Source: Cephalotus follicularis (taxonomy: Eukaryota; Streptophyta; Magnoliopsida; Oxalidales; Cephalotaceae). From it: a stretch of 64,000 bases of DNA. The stretch spans positions 124,001 through 188,000 of the forward strand of contig BDDD01000558.1 in the NCBI GenBank assembly GCA_001972305.1, given 5' to 3'. The notes under the pieces were generated by a model, which was not told the origin of the DNA, did not search any database, and saw only the letters and a program-made list of their open reading frames with translations. Position 1 is the stretch's first letter; each line of letters opens with the position of its first letter. A program made the translations under genes and the position numbers. This document shows positions 23 to 42,136 of the stretch, piece after piece.

Positions 23-1581
23 TGATAAGCATAAAAATTTATTATTTTTAATGATATAATTGTTATATTTTTATGTTTGGAACATATTACTTTGGTTGTG
101 TTTGATTGATTTTCAGGTTAGAGACCAAAGATATCAAAATGCAAAAACATTGGTCAAATTGGCACAAATTGAGAGCAAGGAAATCCAAGAATGAAGAAAT
201 AACAAAATTCTGCAAAAAACAGAGGAAGACGTCAACGCCTATCTTTAAGCGTCGACGCCTAACCCTTAAGCGCTGACGGTTTCGAGGATAGCGTCGACGC
301 TTTGTGCTTCACCTGGAGAAAATTTGCAGAACTATGATCTTCGTCAACACCAATCCTATTGGCGTTAATGTGCTAGGAATTCAGTATTTAGGCATCAACG
401 CCATGATATAGACGTCAACGCCATAATTGCACAATTCGGACAGTAGCTTACATGTTGACGCACAAAGAGGAAGATGTCAACGCCATCCTGCTTCACAACC
501 AAAGCGTCGATGCCCAAATCATAGCGTCGACGCTTAACACCAAATAAGCTCAAGTACGCAAGATAAACGTTGATGCTTAGTGCATTCAACATATCAAAGC
601 GTCAACGCAAAACGCCAAGACGTCGAAGCCTAAATCATAGCGTCAACACCCACAACGTATCAGGCGCCAAATTTGGAAAGTTTATACAATTTTAGTTAGA
701 TTAAAACAATTAAATTTTTTTCCGTTTTTCATGCATTAGGTTAGAGTATAAAAAGGAAAAAATAAGTCAGGATTGAAGAGAGGCTAGTTAAAAAGTGAAA
801 CAAAAAAAAGAAAAGCGGCTGCTAGATGAAGAATTCTTTGAAGATTATTGCAGCTACCATTTCCATGACCGGCCAAGTTTCTTAATCCATAGATGTAAAT
901 GAACCCATGTTTTATATAAATATATATTCCAGTTTTGGTTTTCAAGTTTAATTGCATGTTTGTGAGACACTTTTTCTTGTTAATGTATTGGAACATTTAT
1001 GAGAGGAATTTTTAATGATATAAAATCTGTTTTGATGATTTAGTGGTAGTTGCTGTAATTCATTCACATCATGCTATATCTTTATATGTGATCAAACCAA
1101 AGACACCCTTTAACCAATCAACCTTTTGAGAGTATCAAGGTTTGACAGGATAGGTTGTACCTAGGCTAAATCACTAGTCTGTTGTGTTAATTTGTTATGC
1201 TATTAAACCAGAATTCGTGTCATGAATTTGAGTGTATATATATATATATAAGGAGATTCTCGCATCTACGAAATTGTTTTTTTTTACATCACTTTGCTTA
1301 TTTATTTATTTTGTTAGTTTACATTAAATATTTGCTCTGAATTGTTTAGTTTTTCATTAAAGTAGTTTAATTCAAAACCAATCCTCTTTTCACAATTTAC
1401 TTTATTTGTATTGTTAGCTTAGATTAAATTAATTCAGTGTTCATATTTTTTTTGTTTAAGTGCACGCTAATTTCATTTATATTGCATGTCATCATAGCTC
1501 TTCATGGGAACGTTCCCTACTTTCAATTGTGCTAAATTGTTAGATTAAGGTAATTTTAATTCGGATTAACGACACCCATCA
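23..1581 (+). repeat. LTR 1 (5') of the Athila composite
   Basis: Begins TGATAAGCAT and ends ACCCATCA, 1559 bp. It holds a cluster of GCGTCGACGC-like sites (229-650), then a TATA-like box (about 746-757), then an AT-rich R/U5 part with a TA dinucleotide run near 1233. The same sequence, with few changes by eye, is repeated at 12786-14340 and, with a replaced middle, at 6239-8129. Confidence 0.92.
229..650. promoter_or_regulatory. Phased palindrome cluster in LTR U3
   Basis: About 16 copies of a decamer related to GCGTCGACGC, itself a perfect palindrome. Decamer starts read by eye: 229, 249, 270, 291, 341, 362, 392, 412, 452, 474, 504, 524, 567, 599, 620 and 640. Steps are 20-22 bp or about 30, 40, 43 and 50, near whole numbers of helical turns. 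Common variants have TCAA or TTGA in place of TCGA, as expected from decay of methylated CpG. The cluster ends about 100 bp before the TATA-like box. A role in promoter control is an inference. Confidence 0.7.
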
Positions 1582-1587
1582 AAATTT

Positions 1588-1605
1588 TGGCACCATTGCC
1601 GGAGA
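1588..1605 (+). other. Primer-binding site, tRNA-Asp-like
   Basis: TGGCACCATTGCCGGAGA lies six bases after the LTR end. It differs from the complement of the plant tRNA-Asp 3' end (TGGCGCCGTTGCCGGGGA) at three places, each a G to A change. The same site follows LTR 2 at 8136. Confidence 0.8.
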
Positions 1606-1726
1606 GCCAATGCATGATTCTGATAGATTTGAAGTTAGTTTCACTGCACATTGTTTAGTTAGAATTTAATTTAGTCATAATAGATTAGGGCACTCCCATT
1701 TATTCTTTTCATTGTAGCTTAGGTGC

Positions 1727-3091
1727 ATGCTAGGTCGCCGATCATTAGATTCCGAAGTAACCCCCTTTGATTTAGAAATAGAGAGAACTCTGGCTGGAAT
1801 TAGAGCAAATAACAGAATGGGTGAAAATAATGACACGCAACCAAGACGACCCTTGAGTGAACATTTTACACCAGGTACATACACATTTGCCTCATGTATT
1901 AGAGTGCCTACTATCCAAGCAGCTCAATATGAGATCAAGTCTAGCATTATACAGATATTACCATCCTTCTATGGACTTGACAATGAGGAACAATATAAGC
2001 ATTTGGATGAATTCATTGAGATATGCTCCACATTTAAAATTCAAAACTTGTCGGAGGATGCCCTGAAGCTGATTTTATTTACATTCTCATTGAAAGACAG
2101 AGCTAAACAGTGACTCAATTCCTTGGATTCCGTGATCATCACCACATGGGCACAATTACAGCACAAATTTCTCAAGAAATATTTTCCCATAGGACGGACC
2201 AACCAAATAAGGCGAGCCCTCACTAGCTTTTCACAGCATGATAGTGAGCAGTTCCATGAGGCATGGAAAAGATTAAAGGACCTCATTAGAAAATGTCCCC
2301 ATCATGTCGTACCTAAATGGCAGTTAGTCCAATGCTTCTATGAATGGATTGACAGCACAAAATAGACAGATGGTGGATGCCTCCTGTGGAGGCACATTCA
2401 TGCATAAAATTGAGGACGAAGCTTGGCAATTGTTTGAGGCCCTTAACGAGAACTCTTTGCACAATTTATCATCCAGAGTATAGTCTTCTCCCATAGGCAC
2501 TCAAAAGAAAGGAGGTATATATGAGGTTAGCCAATTTGAGACCATCAAGGCCAAGGTGGACATCCTATCCCAGAAATTAGATAAAGTGCTAACTATAGGA
2601 ATGCTTCCTTCGCAATCTACTCAGACTTCCATTGCACAAGAGGCTTACGCCTTATGTGCTAGCCCAACACATTACATGATTGATTGCCCGCTTGTTGTGC
2701 AATATTCGGAATTCATTCAAGAACAAGCACAGGCACGGTGCAAGGATTCTCTAGACCGGGGAATGATCCGTTTTCCAAAACATACAACCCGGGATGGAGG
2801 AATCACCCCAACTTTGCATGGAAGCAGTCCACTACTAGCCCTAATCCTCCATATAGGCAAAATAATTCCATTCCTTATCAGAGTGCCTATAGGGATATGC
2901 AACAATCGAATTTTCTACCTCAAGCACCTACAGCAACTGAAGATAAAATGGATAAGGTGTTATTTGCTTTAGATGGGATCACCAAGAATAGCCTGAAATA
3001 TGATCAAATCCTTCATTCTCATACCCAATCCATCTCTAAGTTGGAATCTCAAATAGGACAACTACATGACATCATTAGGAAGGAAGAATAA
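1727..3091 (+). pseudogene. Athila-like gag, copy 1
   Basis: Capsid-like protein of the retrotransposon, which would package the element RNA in cytoplasmic particles. The frame starts at ATG 1727 (MLGRRSLDSE). A retrotransposon gag domain covers about 2040-2365, with a helix-rich block ending FHEAWKRLKDLIRKCPHH. A TGA at 2111-2113 stands where the family has TGG (tryptophan), and the frame breaks again near 2366 and near 2690. The last part, 2684-3091, has the typical block NPGWRNHPNFAWKQ and then a coiled-coil-like tail (LESQIGQLHD). It is a decayed gene. The identical TGA is present in copy 2 (8659-8661), so the damage came before the duplication. Confidence 0.88.
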
Positions 3092-3109
3092 GGCCACCTA
3101 CCCAGTCAA

Positions 3110-4270
3110 GTGGTAGGAAATCCTAACAATCAGGATGGACACCATCCCCCCATAGAACAAGCCCAACCAATCACTACTTGGAGAAGTGGTCGAGTAATCG
3201 GAGAACCGCAAGTAACTGTCCAAAATCTTGATTCAATTCATGAAAAGAGTCATGAGGAGAGGGAGTCCTTAGAGAGTGGTGAGAAAGAGAGCATTGGAAA
3301 ATCTAATCCGGAAGTCACTAAAGCATCCATGTCTAAAGAGAGTGAACATAAGGGAAAGGAAAAGGACATTACTCTTGCTTCACCTAAAGCACATTTTCCT
3401 GAGTATTTGCGATCTCCGTCTTTAGTTCCTCTGTTTGGTCAAAAGGTTGGAAGGATGGATGAGATGATGGAACTGTTTAAGCGGATCCAAATCAACCTTC
3501 CTCTCTTAGATACGATAAGGTAAGTGCCAGCTTATACCAAGTTTCTGAAAGATTTATGCACCACAAAGCGTAAGCTGAAAACACACATTCTGAATACGGT
3601 CCATTTAACAGAGCAGGTGAGCGCAGTTGTTTCCAACAAGTTGCCTCATAAACTAAAAGACCCCGGAGCTCCTCTGATATCTTGCAAAATTGGAAATTTA
3701 CTTATAGAGAGAGCACTCCTTGATTTAGGGGCTAGCGTTAACATCCTCCCTAGCTCATTTTATGACCTTTTTGGATTTGGAGAATTGAGACCCACTGAGG
3801 TAACCCTTCAACTTGCTGATAGATATTTGAAAATTCCAAAGGGATTCATTGAGGACGTGTTAGTGAAAGTATATGAGCTTCATTTTTCAATGGATTTCCT
3901 TGTGCTCGATATGAAAACCTCTTCGAATGGAAAGCCACAATCAATTATCTTAGGTCATCCTTTCTTAGCCACAACGAATGCTTGCATAAATTGTCGATCT
4001 GGAGCAATGGACATATCCTTTGGTAATAAGAAGTTGAGACTGAACATTTTCAATGCACCCCTAGGACCTCAAGGTGATGAGAATTGTTTTTCCATATATT
4101 TGATAGATGGGATGGTATCCGAGTGTGCACCCGAGACGCCTATCAATGACTCTTTGATGCAACATTTGAGCTTCGTTAACCAAAAGGATATGTTAACGTG
4201 GTTGAAAAATGAAAAAGAGTTAGCATGGCTAGAAAATAAGATCAATGAGCCAACTTCAGATAGTGACTAG
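3110..4270 (+). pseudogene. Athila-like linker and aspartic protease, copy 1
   Basis: The first part (3110-3523) is the lysine/glutamate-rich linker after gag, with the motif TTWRSGRVIGEPQ. One TAA at 3521-3523 separates it from an open frame to 4270. That frame carries a retropepsin-like protease: the active-site region reads LLDLGASVNILP, with a leucine before GAS where the usual motif is D-L/S/T-G, and a flap-side block IILGHPFLATTNA with C-I-N-C-R-S-G after it. This enzyme would cut the Gag-Pol precursor. The rest of pol that should follow is almost wholly deleted. Copy 2 at 9658-10818 has extra stops. Confidence 0.88.
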
Positions 4271-4860
4271 GATCATCTACCCATTACACTAACAAAATTT
4301 CAACACCTGACCAAACATACTTTAACATAGATTTTGATAAAGACTTCATGGAATGTGTAAAGGAATTCGAGGAATTGGAGGTCACACAAAAGGAAATTCT
4401 AAGTTGGTTGGATGATGGGATCATTGATTCCACTTCAGTTAGTCCAAGGGAATTCGCTGACAAGCTTAACACACCGTCTCACCTTCATACCATCCTCCAA
4501 AATAACTCTATTTATTAAAGACCAAATAGGATGGAGAGTGTACATTCGTATGCATCAAATGTGTGACTGGTTGGTTGGCCACGACTATTTTTGTTCTCCA
4601 TATGGTTTTTACTGGTGAAAATTTTGTTGGGATGGTTCGTATATTATAAAAATTGTTTTCTCTCATCGTGTTGATGCAATTAAATGTTACGATTTTATAA
4701 ATGGATTTTATTGGTGGTGATCCCGTTGGGATGTTGTTTATATTGTTTGAAGACGCATTTAAAGTTAATGGGCAGCGTCTGAAACCATATGTGGATGGAA
4801 TTACTGATGGACAGATCATTAAGTCAGTTGACTTGATTGATCCTGTCTACTCTCCTTTGT
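4271..4860 (+). pseudogene. Collapsed pol remnant (RT start and integrase end), copy 1
   Basis: Only scraps of pol remain. Around 4380-4450 is the start of reverse transcriptase (TQKEILSWLDDGII). Around 4520-4600 is a damaged piece resembling the RT block with LAGHDYFC. Around 4755-4860 is the pol C-terminus (FKVNGQRLKPYVDG ... DPVYSPL). The catalytic RT palm, RNase H and integrase core are absent, which removes roughly 3 kb or more against a full Athila pol. The pieces are also broken by stops. The same collapsed structure occurs in copy 2, so this is a deletion derivative that was already fixed before the tandem arose. Confidence 0.8.
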
Positions 4861-6238
4861 GATGGCCACATCTGTTGCGTCTAGCCAAAGACATTAAAGC
4901 AAAGCGCTTAGTGGGAGGCAACCCACTGTTTTACTTTTATTTTATTCATTTATTTTATGTTTTTGTTTCTTTTATGTTTTATATTTTTCAAGTTTTATAG
5001 GTAAGTTTCGTGTATCGATGGAAGAAGCTATGGACTTGCATGAGCTTATTTACGAGATTCCATGATCATATCCGGTAAACCTGACCCCATTCTTTTTATT
5101 TTATTGCATTGCTTCATAATCCTTATTGCTCATTCGTGCATATTTTATAGTTGTGTTTCATTGCATTGAGAACAATGCAAGATTTTAAGTATGGGGGGCT
5201 GTAGTACCATTGTTCATCTTAATTTTGAAAGTAGAAATAAATGTTGATATGCTTAGAAATAATAGAAAACCCCATAGGAGAAATAATAAAAAAAATTAAT
5301 TTCAAGGAAAAGAAAAGGAATATATCTCAAGGTAGGAGTTTATGCGAGAAAATAAATGCAAATGAATAAAAAGACCGTCTTGTATGTGTTCGAAGTTTCA
5401 TAAATCTTAGTAAGGAGAAAGACAAGGAATTAATGTTATTGCAGATAAAAGAAGAAAAATAATGTATATTTTAGCTCTTTAAATTCAGTCTTGGTTTGTA
5501 GACTATTTGATTCGAGTAATTAAGCCTTAGAGGTGTTTTACAACTAGTTCCTTAAAGCCAACTGGTTTGAGAGTAACTGGTCGAAAGCTCGCTACATGGA
5601 TCCTATAAAAAGCTTAAGAGATCAAGACATTGCACGAATTTAAGTTGGTAAAATCTGAAGCTATTTAGTACCTTTGAGTGTTTGGTGTTTGCTCCATCCA
5701 TGATATTTCAGATGGAAAAGAGTGGAAGAATGAATAAAAATAGAAAAAGAAAAGCAAAAGAAAGAAGATGTGTATGAGTACTAAAGTTCTTTGTCCGACT
5801 CAGAACTAGGATTTTATGTTGCTAAGAATGCATATTTTGATTGGTTTATATATTGTGGAATAAAAGAAAATTTATGTAGTAAACTCCTTAATTAAGATGT
5901 GTTTTGATTCTAGAACTTGGAACAAGATAATAAAATTCAAGTATGGGGGTGTTCTATGAATTTTTAAGTTGAGATACATTTTGCCTCTTGTCAAAATTTT
6001 GATGAACTGAATTTTGTATGTTTATTAACTTGGAAAACACTCACGAGACAAAACTCGTCCACTAGGGACACCTAGGGGTTTAAAGGTTTGTTGCATCCAC
6101 TAAATGCAATCGTGATTCTTACGAAAGTGAGTTAGGTTTTTGTGTATGTGTTCTGTTTTTGTTTTTGTGTTTTTGTTCTTGTTTAAGCTTTCCATATTGT
6201 TTGCTTGAGGACAAACAAAGTGCAAGTATGGGGGTATT
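4861..6238 (+). other. Athila 3' non-coding region and polypurine tract, copy 1
   Basis: AT-rich sequence without a gene between the pol stop and LTR 2. It begins with the block AGCGCTTAGTGGGAGGCAAC (4906-4925), typical downstream of Athila pol. GTATGGGG occurs at about 5189, 5941 and 6226. The last one, just before 6239, is the likely plus-strand primer tract. Confidence 0.75.
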
Positions 6239-8129
6239 TGATAAGCATAAAAATGTGTTATTTTTAATGATATAATTATTATATTTTTATGCTTTGAACA
6301 TATTACTTTGGTTGTATTTGATTGATTTTCAGGTTAGAAACCAAAGATATCAAAATGCAAAAACATGGGTCAAATTAGCACAAATTGAGAGCAAGGAAAT
6401 CCAAGAATGAAGAAATAGCAAAATTTTGCAGAAAATAGAGGAAGACGTCAACGCCTATCTTTAAGCGTCAACGCCTAGCCCTTAAGCCCTGTCGGTTTCG
6501 AGGATAGCGTCAACACTTTGTGCTTCACCTGGAGAAAATTTGCAGAACTATGATCTTCGTCAACACCAATCCTATTGGCATTAACGTGCTGAGAATTCAG
6601 TATTTAGGCGTCAACGCCATGATATAGACGTCAACGCCATAATTACACAATTCGAACTGTAGCTTACACGTTGACACGCAAAGAGGAAGATGTCAACGCC
6701 ATCCTGCTTCACAACCCAAGCGTCGATGCCCAAATCATAGCGTCAACGCTTAACATGCATATCAGCTCAAGTACGCAAGATAAACGTCGACACTTAGTGC
6801 ATTCAACATATCAAAGCGTCAACGCAAAACGCCAAGACGTCGACGCCTAAATCATAGCGTCGACGCCCATGACGTATCAGGCACCAAATTTGGAAAGTTT
6901 TTACAATTTTAGTTAGATTGTAACAGTTAGATTTTTTTCCCTTTTTTATGCATTAGGACTTAGCTTTAGAATTCCTTTCTCTATTGCTTTCCACAAGTTT
7001 TACACTTCACACTCTGCAGGATTACTCTCTTTCTCAGCTCAAATTGACTGAGTTCATCACCCTTTGCCATTAAATAGAGAGATGGCTTCTTGGGTAAGTT
7101 TCTTCCCCCCTCTCACACATTTAATTCTCTCCCATGTGACAAGAATTCAACCAATCCAAGTGTTGCACTTGTTACATCCCCAAATAATACCTTTTAGCAT
7201 CTTCCCCTGGCCTGCCACGTGTCCCCACTTAAAGAATTTTACTTACAAAATGCCAAAAAGTCAGATTTTACCTTTGTCTGCAGCTTAAAGTGTCGACCGT
7301 TTCTTCTAAGCGTCGACCGTCACAGCCTTTTCCTGCGTTTTTCACCTCTATCCCGACTAAAGCGCTGACGCTTTATCACAAAGCGTCGACGCTTTGAGTC
7401 AGCAGACACATATAACTTCAACGCGTCGACGTTCAAAATTAGGAGATCGACTCTCACCTAAAGCGTCGACGCTTTAAGTGTAACTGTCGGCGCTTTAGAC
7501 AGTTTTCTTCTCATCACTTAGCTAAAAAAAAATTTCTTCTAGGGGCGCTGCCCCCTGAACCCCCGCCCGCTGTCCGGGCAGCGATACCCCCCGTCCGCTC
7601 ACCGGGGAGCAGAACCCCCGTACTCCCCGAGTGTAGGGTCATACTACGGGTCCCTTAAACTATCTGCCAATATACACAATAGAAATCATATTTAATATCT
7701 TACATGGAAATTTGGGTCCTTACATGTTGTGTTAATTTGTTATGCTATTAAACCAGAATTCGTGCCATGAATTTGAGTGTGTGTATATATATATATATAA
7801 GGAGATTCTCGCATCTACGAAATTGTTTTTTTTACATCACTTTTCTTATTTATTTATTTTGTTAGTTTACATTAAATATTTGCTCTGAATTGTTTAGTTT
7901 TTCATTAAAGTAGTTTAATTCAAAACCGATCCTCTTTTCACAATCTCCTTTATTTGTATTGTTAGCTTAGATTAAATTAATTCAGTGTTCATATTTTTTT
8001 TGTTTAAGTGCACGCTAATTTCATTTATATTGCATGTCATCATAGCTCTTCGTGGGAACATTCCCTACTTTCAATTGTGCTAAATTGTTAGATTAAGGTA
8101 ATTTTAATTCGGATTAACGACACCCATCA
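6239..8129 (+). repeat. LTR 2 (middle), chimeric
   Basis: Starts TGATAAGCAT and ends CACCCATCA, 1891 bp, against about 1555 bp for LTRs 1 and 3. The outer parts match the other LTRs, but 6958-7724 is foreign and replaces about 440 bp that in LTR 1 runs from roughly 741 to 1180. The replaced part contained the TATA-like box. The middle LTR therefore serves both as 3' LTR of copy 1 and 5' LTR of copy 2 without its own core promoter. Confidence 0.88.
6958..7724 (-). repeat. Inverted piece of a different LTR inside LTR 2
   Basis: On the minus strand this begins TGTAAGGACCC, like the left end of a Ty3/gypsy LTR. It runs through a GC-rich stretch (7540-7650), then eight GTCGAC-centred sites (7290-7493), then a CACGTG region and a TATA-like CTCTATTTAATGG near 7073. 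Its order of blocks resembles the solo LTR at 19885-21928, though the sequences are clearly different. The right border is a clean LTR end; the left border at 6957/6958 is not a TG/CA end, so part of the inserted element and of the host LTR was lost. Confidence 0.65.
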
Positions 8130-8135
8130 AAATTT

Positions 8136-8153
8136 TGGCACCATTGCCGGAGA
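8136..8153 (+). other. Primer-binding site of copy 2
   Basis: Same tRNA-Asp-like sequence as at 1588, placed directly after LTR 2. Confidence 0.75.
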
Positions 8154-8274
8154 GCCAATGCATGATTCTGATAGATTTGAAGTTAGTTTCACTGCACATT
8201 GTTTAGTTAGAATTTAATTTAGTCATAATAGATTAGGGCACTCCCATTTATTCTTTTCATTGTAGCTTAGGTGC

Positions 8275-9639
8275 ATGCTAGGTCGCCGATCATTAGATTC
8301 CGAAGTAACCCACTTTGATTTAGAAATAGAGAGAACTCTGGCTGGAATTAGAGCAAATAACAGAATGGGTGAAAATAATGACACGCAACCAAGACGACCC
8401 TTGAGTGAACATTTTACACCAGGTACATACACATTTGCCTCATGTATTAGAGTGCCTACTATCCAAGCAGCTCAATATGAGATCAAGTCTAGCATTATAC
8501 AGATATTACCATCCTTCTATGGACTTGACAATGAGGAACAATATAAGCATTTGGATGAATTCATTGAGATATGCTCCACATTTAAAATTCAAAACTTGTC
8601 GGAGGATGCCCTGAAGCTGATTTTATTTACATTCTCATTGAAAGACAGAGCTAAACAGTGACTCAATTCCTTGGATTCCGTGATCATCACCACATGGGCA
8701 CAATTACAGCACAAATTTCTCAAGAAATATTTTCCCATAGGACGGACCAACCAAATAAGGCGAGCCCTCACTAGCTTTTCACAGCATGATAGTGAGCAGT
8801 TCCATGAGGCATGGAAAAGATTAAAGGACCTCATTAGAAAATGTCCCCATCATGTCGTACCTAAATGGCAGTTAGTCCAATGCTTCTATGAATGGATTGA
8901 CAGCACAAAATAGACAGATGGTGGATGCCTCCTGTGGAGGCACATTCATGCATAAAATTGAGGACGAAGCTTGGCAATTGTTTGAGGCCCTTAACGAGAA
9001 CTCTTTGCACAATTTATCATCCAGAGTATAGTCTTCTCCCATAGGCACTCAAAAGAAAGGAGGTATATATGAGGTTAGCCAATTTGAGACCATCAAGGCC
9101 AAGGTGGACATCCTATCCCAGAAATTAGATAAAGTGCTAACTATAGGAATGCTTCCTTCGCAATCTACTCAGACTTCCATTGCACAAGAGGCTTACGCCT
9201 TATGTGCTAGCCCAACACATTACATGATTGATTGCCCGCTTGTTGTGCAATATTCGGAATTCATTCAAGAACAAGCACAGGCACGGTGCAAGGATTCTCT
9301 AGACCGGGGAATGATCCGTTTTCCAAAACATACAACCCGGGATGGAGGAATCACCCCAACTTTGCATGGAAGCAGTCCACTACTAGCCCTAATCCTCCAT
9401 ATAGGCAAAATAATTCCATTCCTTATCAGAGTGCCTATAGGGATATGCAACAATCGAATTTTCTACCTCAAGCACCTACAGCAACTGAAGATAAAATGGA
9501 TAAGGTGTTATTTGCTTTAGATGGGATCACCAAGAATAGCCTGAAATATGATCAAATCCTTCATTCTCATACCCAATCCATCTCTAAGTTGGAATCTCAA
9601 ATAGGACAACTACATGACATCATTAGGAAGGAAGAATAA
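8275..9639 (+). pseudogene. Athila-like gag, copy 2
   Basis: Near base-for-base copy of 1727-3091, including the TGA at 8659-8661 in place of a tryptophan codon and the later frame breaks. One visible difference is proline to histidine early in the protein (EVTPFDL versus EVTHFDL). The shared lesions show that neither copy has made a full Gag since the two separated. Domain content is as described for copy 1. Confidence 0.88.
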
Positions 9640-9657
9640 GGCCACCTACCCAGTCAA

Positions 9658-10818
9658 GTGGTAGGAAATCCTAACAATCAGGCTGGACACCGTCCCCCCA
9701 TAGAACAAGCCCAACCAATCACTACTTGGAGAAGTGGTCGAGTAATCGGAGAACCGCAAGTAACTGTCCAAAATCTTGATTCAATTCATGAAAAGAGTCA
9801 TGAGGAGAGAGAGTCCTTAGAGAGTGGTGAGAAAGAGAGCGTTGGAAAATCTACTCTGGAAGTCACTAAAGCATCCGTGTTTAAAGAGAGTGAACATAAG
9901 GGAAAGGAAAAGGACATTACTCTTGCTTCACCTAAAGCACATTTTCCTGAGTGTTTGCGATCTCCGTCTTTAGTTCCTCTGTTTGGTCAAAAGGTTGGAA
10001 GGATGGACGAGATGATGGAACTGTTTAAGCGGATCCAGATCAACCTTCCTCTCTTAGATACGATACGGTAAGTGCCAGCTTATTCCAAGTTTCTGAAAGA
10101 TTTATGCACCACAAAGCGTAAGCTGAAAACACACATTCTGAATACGGTCCATTTAACAGAGCAGGTGAGCGCAGTTCTTTCCAACAAGTAGCCTCATAAA
10201 CTAAAAGACCCCGGAGCTCCTCTAATATCTTACAAAATTGGAAATTTACTTATAGAGAGAGCACTCCTTGATTTAGGGGCTAGCGTTAACATCCTCCCTA
10301 GCTCAGTTTATGACCTTTTTGGATTTGGAGAATTGAGACCCACTGAGGTGACCCTTTAACTTGCTGATAGATATTTGAAAATTCCAAAGGGATTCATTGA
10401 TGACGTGTTAGTGAAAGTATATGATCTTTATTTTTCAGTGGATTTCCTTGTGCTCGATATGAAAACCTCTTCGAATGGAAAGCCACAATCAATTATCTTA
10501 GGTCGTCATTTCTTAGCCACAGCGAATGCTTGCATAAATTGTCGATCTGGAGCAATGGACATATCCTTTGGTAATAAGAAGTTGAGACTGAACATTTTCA
10601 ATGTACCCCTAGGACCTCAAGGTGATGAGAATTGTTTTGCCATATATTTGATAGATGGGATGGTATCCGAGTGTGCACCCGAGACGCCTATCAATGACTC
10701 TTTGATGCAACATTTGAGCTTCGTTACCCAAAAAGATATGTTAACGTGGTTGAAAAATGAAAAAGAGTTAGCATGGCTAGAAAATAAGATCAATGGGCCA
10801 ACTTCAGATGGTGACTAG
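9658..10818 (+). pseudogene. Athila-like linker and aspartic protease, copy 2
   Basis: Matches 3110-4270 but is more decayed. Besides the shared TAA after the linker (10069-10071) it has a TAG near 10189 and a TAA near 10357, so the active-site part is cut off and only 10375-10818 stays open. The flap-side block reads IILGRHFLATANA, where copy 1 has GHPFLATTNA. Confidence 0.85.
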
Positions 10819-11410
10819 GATCATCTACCCATTACACTCACAAAATTTCCACACCTGACCAAACATGCTTTAACGTAGATTTTGATAAAGACTTCATGGA
10901 ATGTGTAAGGGAATTCGAGGAATTGGAGGTCACACAAAAGGAAATTCTGAGTTGGTTGGATGATGGGATCATTGATTCCACTTCAGTTAGTCCAAGGGAA
11001 TTCGCTGACAAGCTTAACACACCGTCTCACCTTCATACCATCCTCCAAAATAACTTTCTCTTTACTAAAGACCAAATAGGATGGAGAGTGTACATTCGTA
11101 TGCATCAAATGTGTGACTGGTTGGTTGGCCACGACTATTTTTGTTCTCCATATGGTTTTTACTGGTGGAAATCTTGTTGGGATGGTTCGTATATTATAAA
11201 AATTGTTTTCTCCCATCGTGTTGATGCACTTGAATGTTACGATTTTATAAATGGATTTTATTGGTGGTGATCGCGTTGGGATGTTGTTTATATTGTTCGA
11301 AGACGCATTTAAAGTTAATGGGCAGCGTCTGAAACCATATGTGGATGGAATTATTGATGGACAGATCATTGAGTCAGTTGACTTGATTGATCCTGTCTAC
11401 TCTCCTTTGT
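10819..11410 (+). pseudogene. Collapsed pol remnant, copy 2
   Basis: Carries the same remnants in the same order as 4271-4860: TQKEILSWLDDGII, then RMHQMCDWLVGHDYFC, then FKVNGQRLKPYVDG. A short insertion near 11055 relative to copy 1 keeps the middle piece open from 10896 to 11270. No catalytic RT motif is present. Confidence 0.78.
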
Positions 11411-12785
11411 GATGGCCACATCTGCTGCGTCTAGCCAAAGACATTAAAGCAAAGCGCTTAGTGGGAGGCAACCCACTGTTTTACTTTTATTTTATTCATT
11501 ATTTTATGTTTTTGTTTCTTTTATGTTTTATATTTTTCAAGTTTTATAGGTATGTTTCGTGTATCGATGGAAGAAGCTATGGACTTGCATGAGCTTCTTT
11601 ACGAGATTCCATGATCATATCCGGTAAACCTGACCCCATCCTTTTTATTTTATTGCATTGCTTCATAATCCTTATTGCTCATTTTTGCATATTTTATAGT
11701 TGTGTTTCATTGCATTGAGGACAATGCAAGATTTTAAGTATGGGGGGTTGTAGTACCATTGTTCATCTTAATTTTGAAAGTAGAAATAAATGTTGATATG
11801 CTTAGAAATAATAGAAAACCCCATAGAGAAATAATAAAAAAATTTATTTTCAAGGAAAAAAAAAGGAATATATCTCAAGGTAGGAGTTTATGTGAGAAAA
11901 TAAATGCAAATGAATAAAAAGACCGTCTTGTATGTGTTCGAAGTTTCATAAATCTTAGTAAGGAGAAAGACAAGGAATTAATGTTATTGGAGATAAAAGA
12001 AGAAAAATAATGTATATTTTAGCTCTTTAAATTCAGTCTTGGTTTGTAGACTATTTGATTCGAGTAATTAAGCCTTAGAGGTGTTTTACAACTAGTTCCT
12101 TAAAGCCAACTGGTTTGAGAGTAACTGGTCGAAAGCTCGCTACATGGATCCTATAGAAAGCTTAAGAGATCAAGACATTGCACGAATTTAACTTGGTAAA
12201 ATCTGAAGCTATTTAGTACTTTGAGTGTCTGGTGTTTGCTCCATCCATGACATTTTAGATGGAAAATAGTGGAAGAATGAATAAAAATAGAAAAAGAAAA
12301 GCAAAAGAAAGAAGATGTGTATGAGTACTAAAGTTCTTTGTCCGACTCAGAACTAGGATTTTATGTTGCTAAGAATGCATATTTTGATTGGTTTATATAT
12401 TGTGGAATAAAAGAAAATTTATGTAGTAAACTCCTTAATTAAGATGTGTTTTGATTCTAGAACTTGGAACAAGATAATAAAATTCAAGTATGGGGGTGTT
12501 CTATGAATTTTTAAGTTGAGATACATTTTGCCTCTTGTCAAAATTTTGATGAACTGAATTTTGTATGTTTATTAACTTGGAAAACACTCACGAGACAAAA
12601 CTCGTCCACTAGGGACACCTAGGGGTTTAAAGGTTTGTTGCATCCACTAAATGCAATCGTGATTCTTACGAAAGTGAGTTAGGTTTTTGTGTATGTGTTC
12701 TGTTTTTGTTTTTGTGTTTTTGTTCTTGTTTAAGCTTTCCATATTGTTTGCTTGAGGACAAACAAAGTGCAAGTATGGGGGTATT
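11411..12785 (+). other. Athila 3' non-coding region and polypurine tract, copy 2
   Basis: Same AT-rich region as 4861-6238, ending in GTATGGGGGTATT just before LTR 3. Nothing else is seen in it. Confidence 0.75.
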
Positions 12786-14340
12786 TGATAAGCATAAAAA
12801 TGTGTTATTTTTAATGATATAATTATTATATTTTTATGCTTTGAACATATTACTTTGGTTGTATTTGATTGATTTTCAGGTTAGAAACCAAAGATATCAA
12901 AATGCAAAAACATGGGTCAAATTAGCACAAATTGAGAGCAAGGAAATCCAAGAATGAAGAAATAGCAAAATTTTGCAGAAAATAGAGGAAGACGTCAACG
13001 CCTATCTTTAAGCGTCAACGCCTAGCCCTTAAGCCCTGTCGGTTTCGAGGATAGCGTCAACACTTTGTGCTTCACCTGGAGAAAATTTGCAGAACTATGA
13101 TCTTCGTCAACACCAATCCTATTGGCATTAACGTGCTGAGAATTCAGTATTTAGGCATCAACGCCATGATATAGACAACGCCATAATTACACAATTCGAA
13201 CTGTAGCTTACACGTTGACACGCAAAGAGGAAGATGTCAACGCCATCCTGCTTCACAACCCAAGCGTCGATGCCCAAATCATAGCGTCAACGCTTAACAT
13301 GCATATCAGCTCAAGTACGCAAGATAAACGTCGACACTTAGTGCATTCAACATATCAAAGCGTCAACGCAAAACGCCAAGACGTCGACGCCTAAATCATA
13401 GCGTCGATGCCCATGACGTATCAGGCACCAAATTTGGAAAGTTTTTACAATTTTAGTTAGATTGTAACAGCTAGATTTTTTTCCCTTTTTTATGCATTAG
13501 GTTAGAGTATAAAAAGGAAACAATAAGTCAGGATTGAAGAGAGGCTGGTTAGAACATGAAACAAAAAGAAGAAAAGTGGCTGCTAGATGAAGAATTCTTT
13601 AAAGATTATTGCAGCTACCATCGCCATGATCGGCTAAGTTTCTTAATCCCTAGATGTAGATGAACCCATGTTATATATATATTTTCAGTTTTGGTTTTCA
13701 AGTTTAATTGCATGTTTGTGAGACACTTTTTTTTGTTAATGTATTGGAACATTGATGAGAGGAATTTTTAATGATATAAAATATGTTTTGATGATTTAGT
13801 GTTACTAGCTCTAATTCATTCACATCATGCTATATATTTCTATGTGATCGAACCAAAGACATCCTTTAACCAATCAACCTTTTGAGAGTATCAAGGTTTG
13901 ACAGGATAGGTTGTACCTAGGCTAAATCACTAGTATGATGTGTTAATTTGCTGTGCTATTAAACCAGAATTTGTGCCATGAATTTGAGTATATATATATA
14001 TATATGCATGAGGGGATTCTCACATCTATGAGATTGCTTTCTCATATCATTTTTCTTATTTATTTATTTTGTTAGTTTACATTAAATATTTGCTCTGAAT
14101 TATTTAGTTTTTCATTAAAGTAGTTTACTTCAAAACCAATCATATTTTCACAATTTACTTTATTTGCATTGTTAGCTTAGATTAAATTAATTCAGTGTTC
14201 ATATTTTTTTTTGTTTAAGTGCACGCTAATTTCATTTATATTGCATGTCATCATAGCTCTTCGTGGGAACAATCCCTACTTTCCATTGTGCTAAATTGTT
14301 AGATTATGGTAATTTTGATTCAACTTAACGACACACATCA
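12786..14340 (+). repeat. LTR 3 (3') of the Athila composite
   Basis: Starts TGATAAGCAT and ends ACACATCA, 1555 bp, directly followed by the second CTTAT. It keeps the palindrome cluster (about 12990-13430) and the TATA-like box near 13506 that LTR 2 has lost. Confidence 0.92.
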
Positions 14341-14345
14341 CTTAT

Positions 14346-17264: not shown

Positions 17265-17314
<50 letters not shown>

Positions 17315-19884: not shown

Positions 19885-21928
19885 TGTAATGCCGAAAATT
19901 TTGAATGATAATGTTAAGGAGTAAGTTCTTGTACTTGGTATCTTGTTTACATCATGTGTTATGTTGAAATCGTCGTTTACAGGAGATAAGGCATCGACGG
20001 TGTAGTTTAAGCGTCAACGCTTAGCCTTAACCATCGAAATGGATGCTTCACACGTCGACAAGACAAGACAAAGTCACCTAAGCGCCGACGGTTTATTAAA
20101 GCAGCGACGCTTTGAGAGTAACCATCGACACTTGGACCTATTCTAATGCCAGTTAAAAACAAAGGGTTTTCAACTTGGACAAACTCCTCTAACCGACAAC
20201 GCTTAGACAAAAGAAACATCGCTTGGTTGTAACCGACGAAGCCCTAAATTTAAGCTTAAACACTTTGGAGTCAAGTATTTCAGTTGACCTAGATGAGTCC
20301 AGAAAGCAGAGACGCTTTAAAGTGAAGCGTCAGCGCTTTGACCGGTGAGGAAATTGAAGAACTCAGAACAAGCCCGTAAGCGACGACGCTTAAAAGTGAA
20401 GCGCAGACGCTTTAGACTGCAGAGTAGTTGCCAAATTTGACTTTTCTTAATTTAGTGAGTAAATTAAAATTAATAATAAGACAAGTGTCAAGCCAAGAAG
20501 AGAGGAGACCAGATGTTTTATGTTGGTATGCCAAGTGTCACCATTTGATTGGTAGAATTAAGCACATGAGCAACTAAAGGAGGTGACTCATAAGAGAAAG
20601 GGAGAAACTTTCTCCCCAAGAAACTCAGCCTATATATACATGTGTGTGACCTAAATTAAGTTAGTTTAGCTGAAAAGAAAGTGTTTTCTGTTGAGAGTAA
20701 GAAGGAGAATTCAGCAAGGGAAAGAGAAAAGGAAATCTAAACAAAAGTAAGGAAAATTCAATACCCATTTTTACTAAAGTTCCTCTGTTATTTTCTAAGA
20801 TTATACAGCAGATTGTTTTATTCAAATCTTACTCATTTCTTGATGAAATTTAGAATGATTTAATGTTTTGGAAACTTCAAGATGTCTAATTTAACTGTTA
20901 TTCTTTGTGATTTTCGAAATTCAGACGAATTCTTGATGAAAATCCCTGTTTCATTTTACTGCTCATATACTGCTAGAATATAGAACCAATGACTTTAAAA
21001 ATTCATATAAGATTCAATTCTCAACTAAATTTTATGAACCTTATCTTCTTGAATTCATGGATATGTCTACTTTAATTTCTATGTTTTATGTTTTCTCTGA
21101 AAGTGATTATTTCTATATGAAATGCCAATTTTAGAAATGTTATGTAAAGCTGTTTTATGAATGCTTTTGAGTTAATTACTCAAATGAAGAGAAATGCTTT
21201 ATGAATTGTGAAAGGAAATGAAATGAAATGAACCACCTTAGATTGAAATCCAAGGAGAATGAATCCGAGATGGATTAATGTTATAGAGAGAGATACTCAA
21301 GGACATGCATGTGATGTAAGGATAGTAATAGGAGAGTGCACAATGCCCCGGTGAAGCGGAGTGAAAGGGTTCATTAAGTTTATAAACTATAAATGTTATG
21401 AAATGTCCTGGTTATGTGTTATAAATAGAAAATGGAATGTTATAAAGTATGTTTACTATGAAAAACCTTACTGGGCTATTTAAAACTCATTCCTTTCAAT
21501 GTTGTTTTCAAATAAAATGTTTTCAGGAAATGATTGAATGAAGGATGCGAGCTTTAGAGGAAGCTCATAAGAAGAAGTCTTGAGAAAGAAAATGTATTAT
21601 GCAATAGCGTTTGCATGTACTGATTTTGGGAATGTAATAAGATAATGTTTTTCCGCTGTGTGATGTTTTAAGACAAATGATGCTTAAAGACAAATGATGC
21701 TTGAATGTAAAAGATATGAATGTGATGGTTTATGACATCTTTAGATAAGATGATGATGTTTGAAGTTTGAACTCAAGGTTATGGAATATGTTAAAAAGTT
21801 TAATTTAATGATTTATGTTAGCATTAGGCAAGAATGCTAAAAGGCAAAATGGTTCACCCCATGTAACGCACCGACTCCTTGTAGCTCGCTTTAAGCATTT
21901 AAAGTGAACTCGGATCGGGGGTGTTACA
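19885..21928 (+). mobile_element. Solo LTR inserted in the Tat-like element
   Basis: 2044 bp starting TGTAATGCCG and ending GGGTGTTACA, flanked by a perfect GATCA at 19880-19884 and 21929-21933. No internal coding region is present, so this is an LTR left after recombination. It has a palindrome cluster (19991-20410), a TATA box (TATATATACA, 20631-20640), and a long AT-rich R/U5-like part. The TGTAA...TTACA ends suggest a chromovirus-type Ty3/gypsy family, which I infer only from the ends. Confidence 0.9.
19991..20410. promoter_or_regulatory. Phased palindrome cluster in the solo LTR
   Basis: Decamers related to GCGTCGACGC start at 19991, 20011, 20031, 20052, 20082, 20101, 20122, 20190, 20230, 20306, 20327, 20380 and 20401. 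Many steps are 19-21 bp. The cluster ends about 220 bp upstream of the TATA box. Several sites read ACCGAC or GCCGAC, the core of the drought-responsive DRE element, which may be chance. Confidence 0.65.
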
Positions 21929-24741: not shown

Positions 24742-24746
24742 ATCAG

Positions 24747-26588: not shown

Positions 26589-27340
26589 TGTTGGCCTTTG
26601 CCACCCCGATTAATTATGTTTACATATGTTATTTTGATGATTAACAAACATAGATTACTTGTATGCATAATTCTTTGAGTTATAACTTCATATACTCACT
26701 TGATTTTATGTCCAAAGTTGTGCCAAGAACTTTTATGCAGAAACAGGTCAAGACAGCCGACTGGAAAGCAATCCAGTCGACTGCCCAAGGTTAAGTAGTC
26801 GACTTCCAGAAGCTATGTAGTCGACTGCTTCTTCAACCAGACTCAGAATCTGCAGGAACACCAATCCAGTCGACTGCCACAGGGGTCCAGTCGACTGCCA
26901 GGCAAATCCAGTCGACTGTCACAGGGCATCAGTGGACTGCCATGGGGTACAATTTCAGACAGAAACTTCTGTAACATTTTAACACCCAATCCAGCCGACT
27001 GAAGCAGGGGACCAGTCGATTGCCAGAGGATCCAGTCGACTTCCAGGGAATCCAGCCGACTGTTTTCAATTGTGCAAAATCATACAGTAGGTTCTGTAAC
27101 TTCTTATTTAGCCTCAACAACCGACTGGAACAGAGCATCCAGTCGACTGTCGGCGCCACCAGTCGACTGCCTAGAGGAGACATCCGACTGCCCAACACCA
27201 ACGGCTATATTCAAAAGTACGCGCCATCAAACCAGCCGACTGCCGTACAAATCCAGCCGACTGGATTTGTAACAGACCCTTAAAAATAGATCCGTTGGAG
27301 GCTCAACTATAAGAGGAAAATTAGAGCTCTTGCTAACTGA
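26589..27340 (+). repeat. LTR-like fragment with CAGTCGACTG cluster
   Basis: Starts TGTTGGCCTT and has the layout of a Copia-type LTR: a site cluster (26754-27263) and then AACTATAAGAGGA (about 27305-27317), a TATA-like position. No second LTR or duplication was found, so the right border is uncertain. Confidence 0.45.
26754..27263. promoter_or_regulatory. CAGTCGACTG palindromes in groups of four
   Basis: Eighteen decamers close to CAGTCGACTG start at 26754, 26774, 26796, 26818; 26867, 26888, 26909, 26930; 26992, 27013, 27033, 27053; 27118, 27140, 27160, 27181; 27233, 27254. Within each group of four the step is 20-22 bp, and group starts are 113-126 bp apart. The sequence between sites is poorly conserved. 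Confidence 0.75.
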
Positions 27341-30603: not shown

Positions 30604-30664
<61 letters not shown>

Positions 30665-30717
30665 CATGGTTAGACTGTTGAGTTGCAATGGTGTGATTGT
30701 GTTATACTTGGTCGATC

Positions 30718-30778
<61 letters not shown>

Positions 30779-39700: not shown

Positions 39701-39847
39701 TAATTCGTTGGCATAATTCCTTTTTTCTATCCTTCACAGTTTGTTTTCTTCACTGGTGGAATCGTTTTTTTGACACTTATCATAAATGGATCAACAACAC
39801 AATTGGTTTTACATCTTCTAGATATGGACAAGCTATCAGCAGCGAAG
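28251..39847 (+). CDS. SOS1: SOS1/NHX7-type plasma-membrane Na+/H+ antiporter, exons 1-14 (N-terminal transport domain)
   Basis: Exports Na+ in exchange for H+ at the plasma membrane; the family is activated by the SOS2-SOS3 kinase complex under salt stress. Fourteen exons join in frame to 452 codons: 28251-28446, 28571-28621, 28737-28828, 29659-29736, 29807-29964, 30112-30213, 30285-30402, 31207-31259, 31330-31395, 32128-32172, 32298-32353, 38781-38965, 39541-39588, 39740-39847. Start is ATG 28251 (MESVAEEFPYRILEES). They cover the Na+/H+ exchanger domain, with RHLLRGTRVPYTVALL, FLPALLFESSF, LLSATDPVAVVSLLKELGAS, IEGESLMNDGTAIVVYQ, FNDTVIEITLTLAVSY and WSGLRGAVALALALSV. Introns are GT-AG except intron 12, which is GC-AG. 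The family is about 1140 residues long; the cytosolic cyclic-nucleotide-like and autoinhibitory half was not found downstream. Confidence 0.93.
30546..30776 (+). repeat. 115-bp tandem duplication in intron 7
   Basis: The unit starts ATTGCATGGTTAGACTG at 30546 and again at 30661, each followed by a CT run and a TA run. The two copies look identical in their unique part, which suggests a recent duplication, possibly by slippage at the microsatellite. Confidence 0.88.
33061..37859 (-). mobile_element. Copia element with three short LTR copies, in intron 11
   Basis: Inserted antisense to the antiporter gene with a perfect GAATC duplication at 33056-33060 and 37860-37864. LTR-like ends lie at 33061-33172, 37233-37360 and 37744-37859, only about 112-128 bp each. 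The leader (36840-37232) is duplicated at 37361-37743, so LTR plus leader occur twice at the 5' end. The primer site after the outer LTR resembles TGGTATCAGAGC (initiator tRNA-Met) with changes. A CTCCCCCTCAAG stretch (33172-33183) is the complement of the polypurine tract. Confidence 0.87.
33173..36853 (-). pseudogene. Copia polyprotein remnants (gag, protease, integrase, RT, RNase H)
   Basis: Read from right to left. 36853-36323 has the end of gag with a damaged zinc knuckle (CSHYQKLGHTAPYC, tyrosine in place of the second cysteine) and a protease block where DSGA has become DYGV. 35381-35145 is integrase (LQSNNAHEYMS). 34518-33982 is reverse transcriptase, with [34 protein letters not shown] and the catalytic VVYVDDIVIT. 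33960-33173 holds scraps of the RNase H part. Stops and frame changes are spread throughout, so no function is expected. Confidence 0.85.
37865..38780 (+). other. Remaining intron 11 sequence after the Copia insertion
   Basis: Continues the original intron to the acceptor TTGTTTCAG at 38780. Open frames here (37866-38428) carry no family motif and are taken as chance. Confidence 0.6.
38966..38967 (+). other. GC splice donor of intron 12
   Basis: Exon 12 ends GTGAAG and the intron begins GCAAGT. The frame then resumes exactly at CGTTCTAGC after ...GTGCCAG (39541), giving SVKRSSDN. GC-AG introns with an AG|GCAAGT donor are a known minor class spliced by the major spliceosome. Confidence 0.85.
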
Positions 39848-40203
39848 GTAAGGTTTAATTAGATCTATATTGAAATATATTAACTTCTAACAGCAAGGGA
39901 ATATTTTAATTAGTGTCAAATGATTTTGATGCCTTAGTAATGCCTCTCAATTTTCCTTTTTTTTTATTTATAAATTCTTCATTATTATTATTTGTTATAG
40001 GGCATAATAATTTGATGTTAATCATCTGCAGTTTATACGGGATGTCTTCTAACAGGTTTTTAATTCTGATATTGATGGAAATTTCAAAGTTCAAAAAATA
40101 TAAATATCTCGACAGAAGCATTGATGGGTAAAATAACTATTGATGTCAGTTTAAAAAAATTATTGTAACTTTACTGTAAATAATAGTATGTGTGCGTGTG
40201 TGC

Positions 40204-40250
<47 letters not shown>

Positions 40251-42136
40251 TTGAATATACGAGTTTCGAATTTAATACCACATAGAGTTTCTTTGAGATT
40301 CAAAACTATCAACGATATCTCCCATCTGTATGAGAACCACTAGCGTGAATATAAACTTATTTATAGTCATACCATGCCTTACAAATTTTGTAAAGCTTCA
40401 GAAACGTAGTGTTGAACCCCATTTATGCCATGTTCTCAGGGACATGCTTTGCCCCTGGAAACCAACCTGTTGACATGGGTTGCGAAACTCGAGGGTTTAA
40501 AGACAAGTAACTAAACAATGCCAAAAAAGTGCAAAGTAGCCTGACTATATTACATTCTTGGATTTTTAAGGACAAAAAGACCAATAAGTTAATTTAAGTG
40601 GCTAGAAATTGAGGTTAAGAGGGCTGACAATATATATTAGAAGAATTATAATGATTCTAAGAGGAATAAATTGATGGAACGTTGTAATCTTATAGTCAAA
40701 CTTTTCTCCATCTCTTGAGTTACTAATATGTCTATTTTAGTGCCCACAACACAACTATTCCCGCCATAACAAATATGAGCGAGATATTTTCAAGTCTTTT
40801 ATTTTTTTCTTCAATGCTGATAAAATAGTTTTTCACTCAAGTTTAGGTGGTAGCCTGGTGGGAGAAATTATAGTTGTGGTGCTATCAACATCCTATAAAA
40901 GAAAGAGGTGATGGAGACAAGTCTTATCAAAGACAGACTTGTCTCTATCTCTCTCCAACACGTTGTAATGAATAAGAAGAGAATTTTTAACCTCATTCAT
41001 CCAAATGAAAATTAGGGTCATTACAAACAATCCTTACCGACACGAAACGGGTAAGCGATGTCGATCACGTGGCGACAATAGGGGGTAGAAGTACTAGCCA
41101 ACTCCTAGCACATAGGCCCACCTCTGCTGTCAATGGCATACTCCGACCATTGCACAATCAATCACTGAGAAGATTACAAAATTTGGAAATTTCAAAACAC
41201 GAGTCTCATTATTAGACACAATTTCGCTTTGGCAGTTGTTGCATTATGCAACCACTTGAAACCATTTTTCAATTGGTGTATTAGCACACACTTGAAAATT
41301 CTAGTTTTAAAAGTATTTTCCATATAAAATAATAATTTTCGTAAATATCAATTTAATGCAATTACTTTGTCGTTCAACATTTTGATATCTTTCCCTCGAA
41401 CAATCCACAACAATTCACAGTAACGTCAGTAATATAAATGCACGATTCAGTTAGTATTGGAGATGAAAACCCTTGAGAAACATCGGTGAAATCCCCTTAG
41501 TGACAATTCAGTCAGGTTTGAAGGACATAACCGGCGACGCTTAATTTTAAGCGCCAGTGCTTAACCCAAAGAGTCGATGGTTAGATCATCCGTTGGCGCT
41601 TTACACTGGATGTAGATGTAAGGATACTCCAATTTGCCTAACTGTCGATGCTTCGCAAAGCGAGGAGAAGTTTTAGCAACCCGTTGTTGGTTTGAGCTGA
41701 AATTTGAATTAGGATCACAACAGGAGTGACTAAGCGTTGAATCAAAAGGAGATAGGTATATATTTATAGTCTCTAGGGTTTTGGATCTAACCTAACCTAA
41801 CCTAACCTAACCTAAACCCACATTACATAGATATAGGCCCAGAGATAACTAGGCCCAACTTGCATAACTAATACAAAATAACAATTATGAAGTATTCTTT
41901 TTAATTATGAATAGTTCTCAATTTGCCAACTTATTAAAAGTCTTATCAGACCCCCAAACTGTAAAGAACCCAAATTCAATACCGATCAAGATTAGCATGA
42001 GCTAAACAAAAACTCAAATCAGTAATTAGTAATTAATAAAGTATACATAAATTCATTAAAACACATCATACATCAACTTCATGTTGTTTAAGAGAATCAT
42101 TGTTATCAAGGGCTAATTAGAAAATTAGAAAGTCAA
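39848..42136. other. Non-coding, possibly intron 14, with LTR-like pieces
   Basis: Starts with the donor GTAAGG after exon 14. Contains a GT/TA dinucleotide run (40188-40248), a TATA-like CCTATAAAAGAAAG near 40891, a palindrome cluster (41531-41743) with a TATA-like box at 41757-41769, and five CTAAC units at about 41787-41816. No exon of the antiporter C-terminal half was seen. Confidence 0.55.
41531..41743. promoter_or_regulatory. Phased palindrome cluster, fifth location
   Basis: Decamers related to GCGTCGACGC start at 41531, 41551, 41571, 41590, 41642 and 41734. Steps are 20, 20, 19, 52 and 92. A TATA-like TATATTTATAG follows at about 41759. More decayed than the other clusters. Confidence 0.5.

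Follow-up and report, generated by a model that had tools for sequence, protein, structure and literature searches.

Why do retrotransposons that belong to different superfamilies carry the same short palindrome, repeated in step, in their long terminal repeats (LTRs)? The question is raised by a 64-kb stretch of the Cephalotus follicularis genome (1.577 Gb, 9,746 contigs), namely BDDD01000558.1:124001-188000 (hereafter the window), which contains 26 exact copies of the hexamer GTCGAC. A preliminary description of the window held that these are clustered in five LTR-like segments that otherwise differ from one another.

We have found two classes of 10-bp palindrome, which share a GTCGAC core with either CA/TG or GC/GC flanks and which occur in arrays. 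The CAG class consists of CAGTCGACTG-like sites (CAGYCGACTG) and the GCG class of GCGTCGACGC-like sites, (AA)GCGTYRACGC(TT). The two classes are mutually exclusive in arrays and essentially never mix. The same CAG palindrome is present in the LTRs of Sireviruses and of chromoviruses, two groups from different superfamilies whose LTRs show no relationship by blastn. The sites are conserved much more strongly than the surrounding LTR. On the evidence of sequence, we consider it likely that the arrays are activating modules that unrelated retrotransposons exploit, each class being read by its own sequence-specific DNA-binding factor.

Abundance and spacing of the palindromes

GTCGAC exceeded expectation more than any other of the 64 palindromic hexamers in 264 kb of sequence, with 204 copies against 20.9 expected from dinucleotides. 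Pair counts for the whole genome were compared with reversed-pattern controls. A genome-wide search returned 178,594 GTCGAC pairs 16-26 bp apart (control 2,533) and 21,772 pairs 30-40 bp apart (control 788), the latter being partly 40-bp double steps. Exact CAGTCGACTG-N10-12-CAGTCGACTG pairs numbered 37,144 (control 132); this CAG pair occurred in only nine stretches of a 257-Gb prokaryote collection and yielded no match in a scan of IMG/VR. A chance origin of the arrays is rejected by the genome-wide excess, the shuffles and the controls.

Individual elements were studied in sampled genome stretches, which are designated by L numbers, and tek0, tek1 and tek4 denote chromovirus array sets. Contig C1 was sampled as twenty 10-kb chunks, of which ten were contiguous (1-100000) and ten were picked where the GTCGAC-pair scan had listed matches; densities in these chunks are biased upward because ten of the twenty were chosen for listed matches. 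Six additional chunks were picked by position alone, and four of them contained arrays or close pairs.

Spacing in the CAG class was measured in the 264 kb on 217 sites, which gave 182 nearest-neighbour spacings of up to 120 bp. These fell at 20-22 bp (126), 19 bp (1), 27-28 bp (11), 40-44 bp (16) and 49-52 bp (11), and none was shorter than 19 bp or lay at 23-26 or 29-39 bp. The 19-22 bp step described earlier is thus borne out. The recurring gap of 49-53 bp is likewise real, but it is at least partly a 21 + 28 bp step with a site lost: L014 has 21 + 28 where its relative L013 has 49, the middle site having been lost in that family. Spacing in the GCG class was looser than in the CAG class over the same 264 kb. 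Runs of at least three sites in step numbered 48, across 27 sources in 324 kb, and 27 of the 48 contained exactly four sites. Arrays of Sirevirus type are quartets (three steps of 20-22 bp) with gaps of ~49-65 bp or more, as in L019:7770-8230, L029:9394-9780 and L025:7421-8047.

Two exclusive classes of site and the polarity of CAG arrays

CAG-class sites in the 264 kb comprised 88 exact copies of CAGTCGACTG and 118 one-mismatch forms. The main variants among the latter were CAGCCGACTG/CAGTCGGCTG (63 of 118) and TAGTCGACTG/CAGTCGACTA (34), and the CpG-decay forms CAGTTGACTG and CAGTCAACTG numbered only six. Flanks beyond the palindrome were not conserved in this class. The GCG class was represented by 17 exact copies of GCGTCGACGC and by one-mismatch forms that included GCGTCAACGC (14) and GCGTTGACGC (4); its site extends to roughly AAGCGTCGACGCTT.

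The earlier proposal of two palindrome types is upheld by their separation. GCG pairs with 8-14 bp between the sites numbered 3,558 genome-wide, whereas mixed GCG-CAG pairs with the same gaps numbered two, against the 37,144 CAG pairs given above. When one mismatch was allowed, 324 kb contained 134 CAG pairs, 17 GCG pairs and no mixed pair.

The CAG arrays are also polar. Pairs of CAGCCGACTG run in the same direction 31,800 times genome-wide (15,848 + 15,952) and are convergent 367 times, and in 324 kb the clusters with informative asymmetric sites were one-way in 14 of 16 cases. In Sirevirus, tek0 and tek4 arrays the sites read CAGCCGACTG in the element sense; in the tek1 chromovirus family the entire array is inverted relative to the element. 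The inverted tek1 array fits an enhancer, because enhancers allow either orientation, and an array that is polar inside and tolerated either way round would have the look expected of an enhancer built from a directional binding site.

Host elements of the arrays

Sireviruses were defined by the polypurine tract (PPT) and primer-binding site (PBS) signatures of Bousios et al. 2010 (PMC2829016). The PPT was found as AGGGGGAG-AT-TGTTGG at L009:9477+ and L020:1076+ (CAG class) and as AGGGGGAG-AT-TGTTGA at L009:2790- (GCG-like class). The 5' LTR/PBS junction CA-ATTGG-TATCAGAGC was found as CAACAATTGGTATCAGAGC near L025:6869-, adjoining a copia gag at L025:5979-6809. Matches to Retrotran_gag_2 in L009 and L025 and to RVT_2 in L024 place these elements in Ty1-copia. 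Three Sirevirus LTRs carry 12, 16 and 18 sites, where the 2010 paper gives a minimum of eight per element, and the TATA box lies 43-44 bp past the last site in the Sirevirus LTRs of L009 and of the window.

Gypsy hosts were identified by RVT_1 (L021, L022, L026), RNase H and integrase, and their PBS is TGGTATCAGAGC. The Pfam chromodomain scored above cut-off in tek1 (L021, L026) and below cut-off in L024 (tek0-like) and in L019, and it had no match in the scanned open reading frames (ORFs) of L015, L022 and L020. We presume these chromoviruses to be Tekay-like.

Array clusters with at least two exact sites numbered 48 in the 264 kb and formed 15 groups by blastn over at least 150 bp. No match of this length joined copia LTR groups to gypsy LTR groups. 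The view that one module is used by several retrotransposon families is accordingly supported far beyond the window, in copia and gypsy LTRs alike. One blastn group links CAG and GCG chromovirus families solely via sequence before the LTR. Homology of GCG-class and CAG-class chromovirus LTRs was considered here and rejected, as the match lies almost wholly in front of the LTR and reads as the end of pol.

GCG-class arrays are present among gypsy elements in the L020 LTR (four sites), whose element groups with tek0 by reverse transcriptase (RT), and in L019 (five sites). They are also found in the gag-protease element of the window, which has 10 sites, and in the Sirevirus at L009:2250-2790:-, where the hybrid GCGTCGACTC makes up three of the four sites. 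The RT of the GCG element L020 is 74-75% identical to that of tek0 (CAG), whereas tek1 (CAG) and tek0 share 66-68%. Class therefore does not follow element ancestry, because the GCG element L020 is nearer to the CAG family tek0 than the CAG family tek1 is. A single chromovirus LTR of ~2.5 kb contains two CAG arrays ~1 kb apart (L023:238-330 and L023:1209-1310), and the partner LTR of the same insertion lacks the second of these together with ~1.27 kb of surrounding sequence.

Conservation of sites and origin of the arrays

Conservation was measured in four LTR groups, each with six copies and 30 ordered pairs, none of which was dropped. Site identity in tek0, tek4, tek1 and Sirevirus LTRs was 94.8, 88.5, 87.7 and 92.2%, respectively, against 70.9, 63.1, 67.1 and 75.3% elsewhere in the LTR. 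CpG dinucleotides were kept in 91, 93, 78 and 92% of cases within sites and in 43, 13, 41 and 51% outside them.

Convergent use and capture had both been offered to explain how different families came by the same module. On the same strand, copia and gypsy arrays had spacers in common with at least nine matches in 8, 3 and 4 pairs for tek0, tek4 and tek1, respectively; reverse-complement controls gave none in any of the three sets, and column-shuffle means were 2.8, 0.3 and 0.5. Each family contributed several copies to this test, and the spacers are therefore not independent. When the sites were masked and whole arrays aligned, one of 17 pairs (copLTR2-tek4f) beat both the best of 20 letter shuffles and the reverse-complement control. 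Masked alignment was rejected as proof of capture, since 16 of the 17 pairs failed and one success does not prove it. Spacer sharing leads us to lean towards capture, that is, exchange of array pieces together with selection that keeps the sites, although masked whole arrays mostly do no better than shuffles. Similar spacers would also follow from an extended, polar binding preference.

Arrays in front of Transposase_32

A second CAG array precedes the Transposase_32 (PF20167) ORF in all three Sirevirus copies seen (L009, L019, L024). First-look candidates for PF20167 in the genome numbered 13,073; 150 of these were scored, and upstream sequence was sampled as 20 stretches spread over these 150 best-scored candidates. 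Between three and nine CGTYRACG sites (GCG class) lie within 360 bp upstream in 19 of the 20 sampled copies, which do not amount to 19 independent cases because the sample looks like few families; the remaining copy, L054, has no CGTYRACG site upstream. In 13 of the 20 promoters the last such site starts exactly 21 bp before TATATA. The commonest spacings are 19 bp (30) and 31 bp (14) rather than 21 and 28 bp, and the central pairs of the sites vary (CGTCAACG 46, CGTTAACG 27, CGTTGACG 24, CGTCGACG 13). For one GCG-class Transposase_32 copy, a search of the 5 kb upstream found no match to pol.

In the promoters L035-L053 the two spacings add up to 19 + 31 = 50 bp, compared with 21 + 28 = 49 bp in CAG arrays. 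On the reverse strand of L055, another GCG-class array, with a TATA-like stretch behind it, is present at 3734-4066, ~1 kb upstream of the Transposase_32 promoter, and no element was identified there.

Proposed function and alternative explanations

It is proposed that the arrays act as upstream activating (enhancer-like) modules in LTRs and in the internal Transposase_32 promoter. Each 10-bp palindrome would provide a sequence-specific factor with one binding site. A step of 20-22 bp, as found in the CAG class, corresponds to two helical turns and would place neighbours on one face of the DNA, where factors could bind together, commonly as runs of four. The two site classes would serve two factors: CAGYCGACTG keeps one polarity along an array, and (AA)GCGTYRACGC(TT) is tolerant at its centre. 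A dependence on one common trans-acting factor may explain why Sirevirus and chromovirus families use the same class, and arrays may have reached the families by capture of array pieces, by parallel selection, or by both. We infer protein binding, activation of transcription by that binding, and cooperative binding; two-turn spacing, class exclusivity, CpG retention and the TATA register all speak for a bound protein, although none of them is proof of it.

The core of the dehydration-responsive element/C-repeat (DRE/CRT) is RCCGAC. A host AP2/ERF protein of the DREB/CBF type is our leading candidate for the CAG-class factor, though at a rather low probability; it is put forward because CAGCCGACTG, the C variant of the site, contains GCCGAC, and DREB sites are known from gypsy as well as copia elements (PMC11656987). 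The commonest CAG site has T instead of C at the variable position and fits the classical DRE/CRT less, and the preponderance of GTCGAC (88 exact) over GCCGAC counts against a classical CBF.

Further points weigh against activating modules more generally. Both site directions are present in two of the 16 informative clusters, and no clear TATA box is seen just downstream in the chromovirus LTRs examined. The conservation test compared few copies, including LTR pairs of single insertions, and in each pair the first copy defined the sites. The set from in front of Transposase_32 kept two of six ordered pairs and carries little weight (87.1 versus 68.3% identity; 7 and 13 CpGs). The arrays also fold strongly as RNA, with z -4.86 for the window array at 26754-27263 and z -8.05 for L026:3440-3680, which would allow a role as RNA.

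Strong folding is what would be expected if the arrays were sources of hairpin RNA and small RNAs, marks for host silencing rather than activator sites, and palindromic LTR regions of maize Sireviruses reportedly attract small RNAs. Self-complementary units, however, fold by construction, and hairpins would need neither fixed spacing nor a TATA register. Same-way asymmetric pairs are 87 times commoner than convergent ones; this reading is weakened because in site-site pairing head-to-tail polarity creates C-A mismatches, whereas selection for hairpins would act the other way, and we regard it as unlikely. Could the arrays instead be plain tandem repeats without function, left over from a 21-bp unit that slipped or was duplicated? 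The sites have a polarity in common, Sirevirus arrays repeat quartets with partly similar gaps, and adjacent copia spacers match slightly above shuffled ones (5.64 versus 4.42 of ~11). Adjacent gypsy spacers, on the other hand, are near random (4.46 versus 4.05), sites are 88-95% identical against 63-75% in the rest of the LTR, and the same site unit is found in unrelated elements. Slippage or duplication is possible as the growth mode of the arrays; as the whole story it is contradicted by site conservation and is very unlikely. Descent of all arrays from one LTR family that has diverged past recognition, which the preliminary description had set against its own proposal, would agree with the same-strand spacers shared by copia and gypsy arrays. 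It does not hold for whole LTRs, as RT, gag, PBS and PPT divide the hosts into copia and gypsy elements, whose LTR groups lack any blastn link of at least 150 bp, and we judge it highly improbable; common descent of array pieces alone, through capture, is possible.

The position of the arrays raises another alternative, in which an element-encoded factor, either Transposase_32 or another retrotransposon protein, would bind the arrays and activate or un-silence the element while gene-less families ride along. Arrays precede Transposase_32 in the three Sirevirus copies (CAG) and in 19 of the 20 sampled high-scoring copies (GCG), and Hosaka et al. 2017 (PMC5735166) provides an analogy in Arabidopsis VANC proteins, which bind short, dense, one-orientation motifs; VANC6 motifs are also present in the unrelated AT9TSD1. 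The AlphaFold structure model of Transposase_32, however, is worthless (mean predicted local distance difference test, pLDDT, 38.7). In the searched chunks, Transposase_32 queries matched solely the Sirevirus places L009, L019/L020 and L024, and none beside a chromovirus. We hold a VANC-like factor of this kind to be rather unlikely. An extended form, which we think improbable as well, is that two retrotransposon-encoded systems compete, each Transposase_32-type or other element protein having its own palindrome class, with matching arrays acquired by copia and gypsy families. By analogy, this would be a cross-superfamily counterpart of VANC anti-silencing, in which arrays are bound before the protein's own gene and in LTRs.

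Arrays and other features of the window

Each segment of the window was tested by counting 10-mers with up to two mismatches from the class palindrome against 200 dinucleotide shuffles (Table 1). Arrays in four of the five segments named earlier stand far above the shuffles, and the array claimed for 41531-41743 does not. A position upstream of TATA, claimed for all of them, is confirmed for the Sirevirus piece (27263 to 27308) and, outside the window, for the 13 Transposase_32 promoters mentioned above, and is unclear in the chromovirus LTRs.

Table 1. Palindrome arrays and associated features in the window (sites counted with up to two mismatches)
Feature	Position	Strand	Sites	Shuffles	Remarks
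GCG-class array	229..650	+	10	mean 0.33, max 2	LTR copy 22-740
GCG-class array in second LTR copy	6445..6866	+			same array as 229..650
GCG-class array	7290..7493	-	5	max 2	inverted LTR-like piece within 6957-7725
GCG-class array in third LTR copy	12993..13410	+			ends transferred from other copies
Decayed GCG-class array	19991..20410	+	7	max 2	1 exact GTCGAC
CAG-class array	26754..27263	+	18	mean 0.34, max 3	Sirevirus LTR piece
TATA-like box CTATAAG	27307..27313	+			~44 bp past last palindrome, which ends at 27263
Claimed segment, array not demonstrable	41531..41743	.	1	max 1	

The element at 22-14340, which we take to be of the Athila/Tat type, comprises three LTR copies and two internal regions in series. 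Its internal ORF at 3524-4267 is gag-protease-like, and a Pfam search of its ORFs gave no family. The internal stretch 1180-6957 matches 7725-13501 at 98.4% identity, and an insertion at 6957-7725, which contains the inverted LTR piece, interrupts the second LTR copy. This second copy, tested as 6446-6900, has 10 GCG-class sites (shuffle max 2). The third copy is indicated by the alignment of 22-1581 to 12785-14340 at 91.9% and has exact GTCGAC at 13330 and 13383. The inverted piece matches L010 at 75% over 504 bp. The region 7238-7395 is homologous, in inverted orientation, to 20303-20463 (68% identity over 161 bp), so that the segments are otherwise different only in part.

The Sirevirus LTR piece begins with TGTTGGCC at 26589, and every asymmetric CAGCCGACTG site of its array is on the + strand. 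GTCGAC is absent from 41531-41743, where weaker matches are partly ~20 bp apart; an old, decayed array is possible there. Just past it, at 41787-41815, lies a short CTAAC repeat with 5.8 perfect copies. Elsewhere in the window, a 419-bp tandem duplication (95% matches) at 55093-55931 lies in and just behind an ORF that matches RVT_1.

Relation to known systems and significance

The statement that no described element fits must be given up, since palindromic LTR motifs upstream of TATA were published for Sireviruses in 2010 (PMC2829016). According to that paper, Sirevirus LTRs have many-copy palindromic repeated motifs (RM) with a consensus of 10-20 bp shortly upstream of TATA, and a second RM cluster lies 5' of an extra env ORF. 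The Vitis RM, CGGTCGACCG, includes GTCGAC. RM are described there as specific to Sireviruses, absent from classic copia elements, and built on a CGG-CCG core in all but Tnd-1. Cephalotus Sirevirus arrays resemble them in lying in the LTR upstream of TATA, with a second array before an internal ORF. They differ in that the sites are without the CGG-CCG core, the CAG palindrome is not confined to Sireviruses but is also present in gypsy (chromovirus) LTRs, this palindrome is polar with 21/28-bp steps, and two exclusive classes are found across lineages. RM clusters form CpG islands according to the same paper; in Cephalotus the CpG observed/expected ratio was 0.46, 0.50, 0.56, 0.69, 0.83 and 1.00 in six CAG arrays and 1.50 in the window GCG array, with a background of 0.66.

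Hosaka et al. 2017 (PMC5735166) reports VANC target motifs in VANDAL elements, with VANC6 motifs also in the unrelated AT9TSD1. Common to both systems are a short, dense, same-orientation motif in non-coding transposable element DNA, an unrelated carrier and two specificities. The VANDAL binder, in contrast, is demonstrated and element-encoded, while the Cephalotus arrays are known from sequence, and the string 'palindrom' does not occur in the main text of that paper. In PMC11656987, a DREB1 site predicts LTR identity, and most stress-activated maize gypsy, copia and long interspersed nuclear element (LINE) retrotransposons carry DREB/CBF motifs. That one factor class may serve several superfamilies is known, because those motifs span gypsy, copia and LINE elements; they are features of a statistical model or entries in motif lists there and do not form phased arrays of palindromes.

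That Sirevirus LTRs contain palindromic arrays ahead of TATA is already known (PMC2829016). What is new is the sharing across superfamilies, the polarity with the 21/28-bp rule, and the two exclusive classes that cross lineages. No earlier report of copia-gypsy palindrome sharing, of the polarity and the 21/28-bp rule, or of exclusive classes was found among the matches listed in the open-licence literature.

Finding the same palindromes on both sides of the copia-gypsy divide bears on how LTR promoters evolve. LTR regulatory regions are usually regarded as evolving family by family. In Cephalotus, Ty1-copia and Ty3-gypsy elements have identical site pairs in common, precisely spaced and numbering in the tens of thousands, and close relatives differ in class. 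The predicted protein that binds the Sirevirus palindrome, which the 2010 paper does not name, becomes directly testable, as a bait, a spacing rule and two specificities are now defined. Our findings suggest that the form of an LTR promoter is set by shared use of trans-acting factors rather than by the ancestry of the element.

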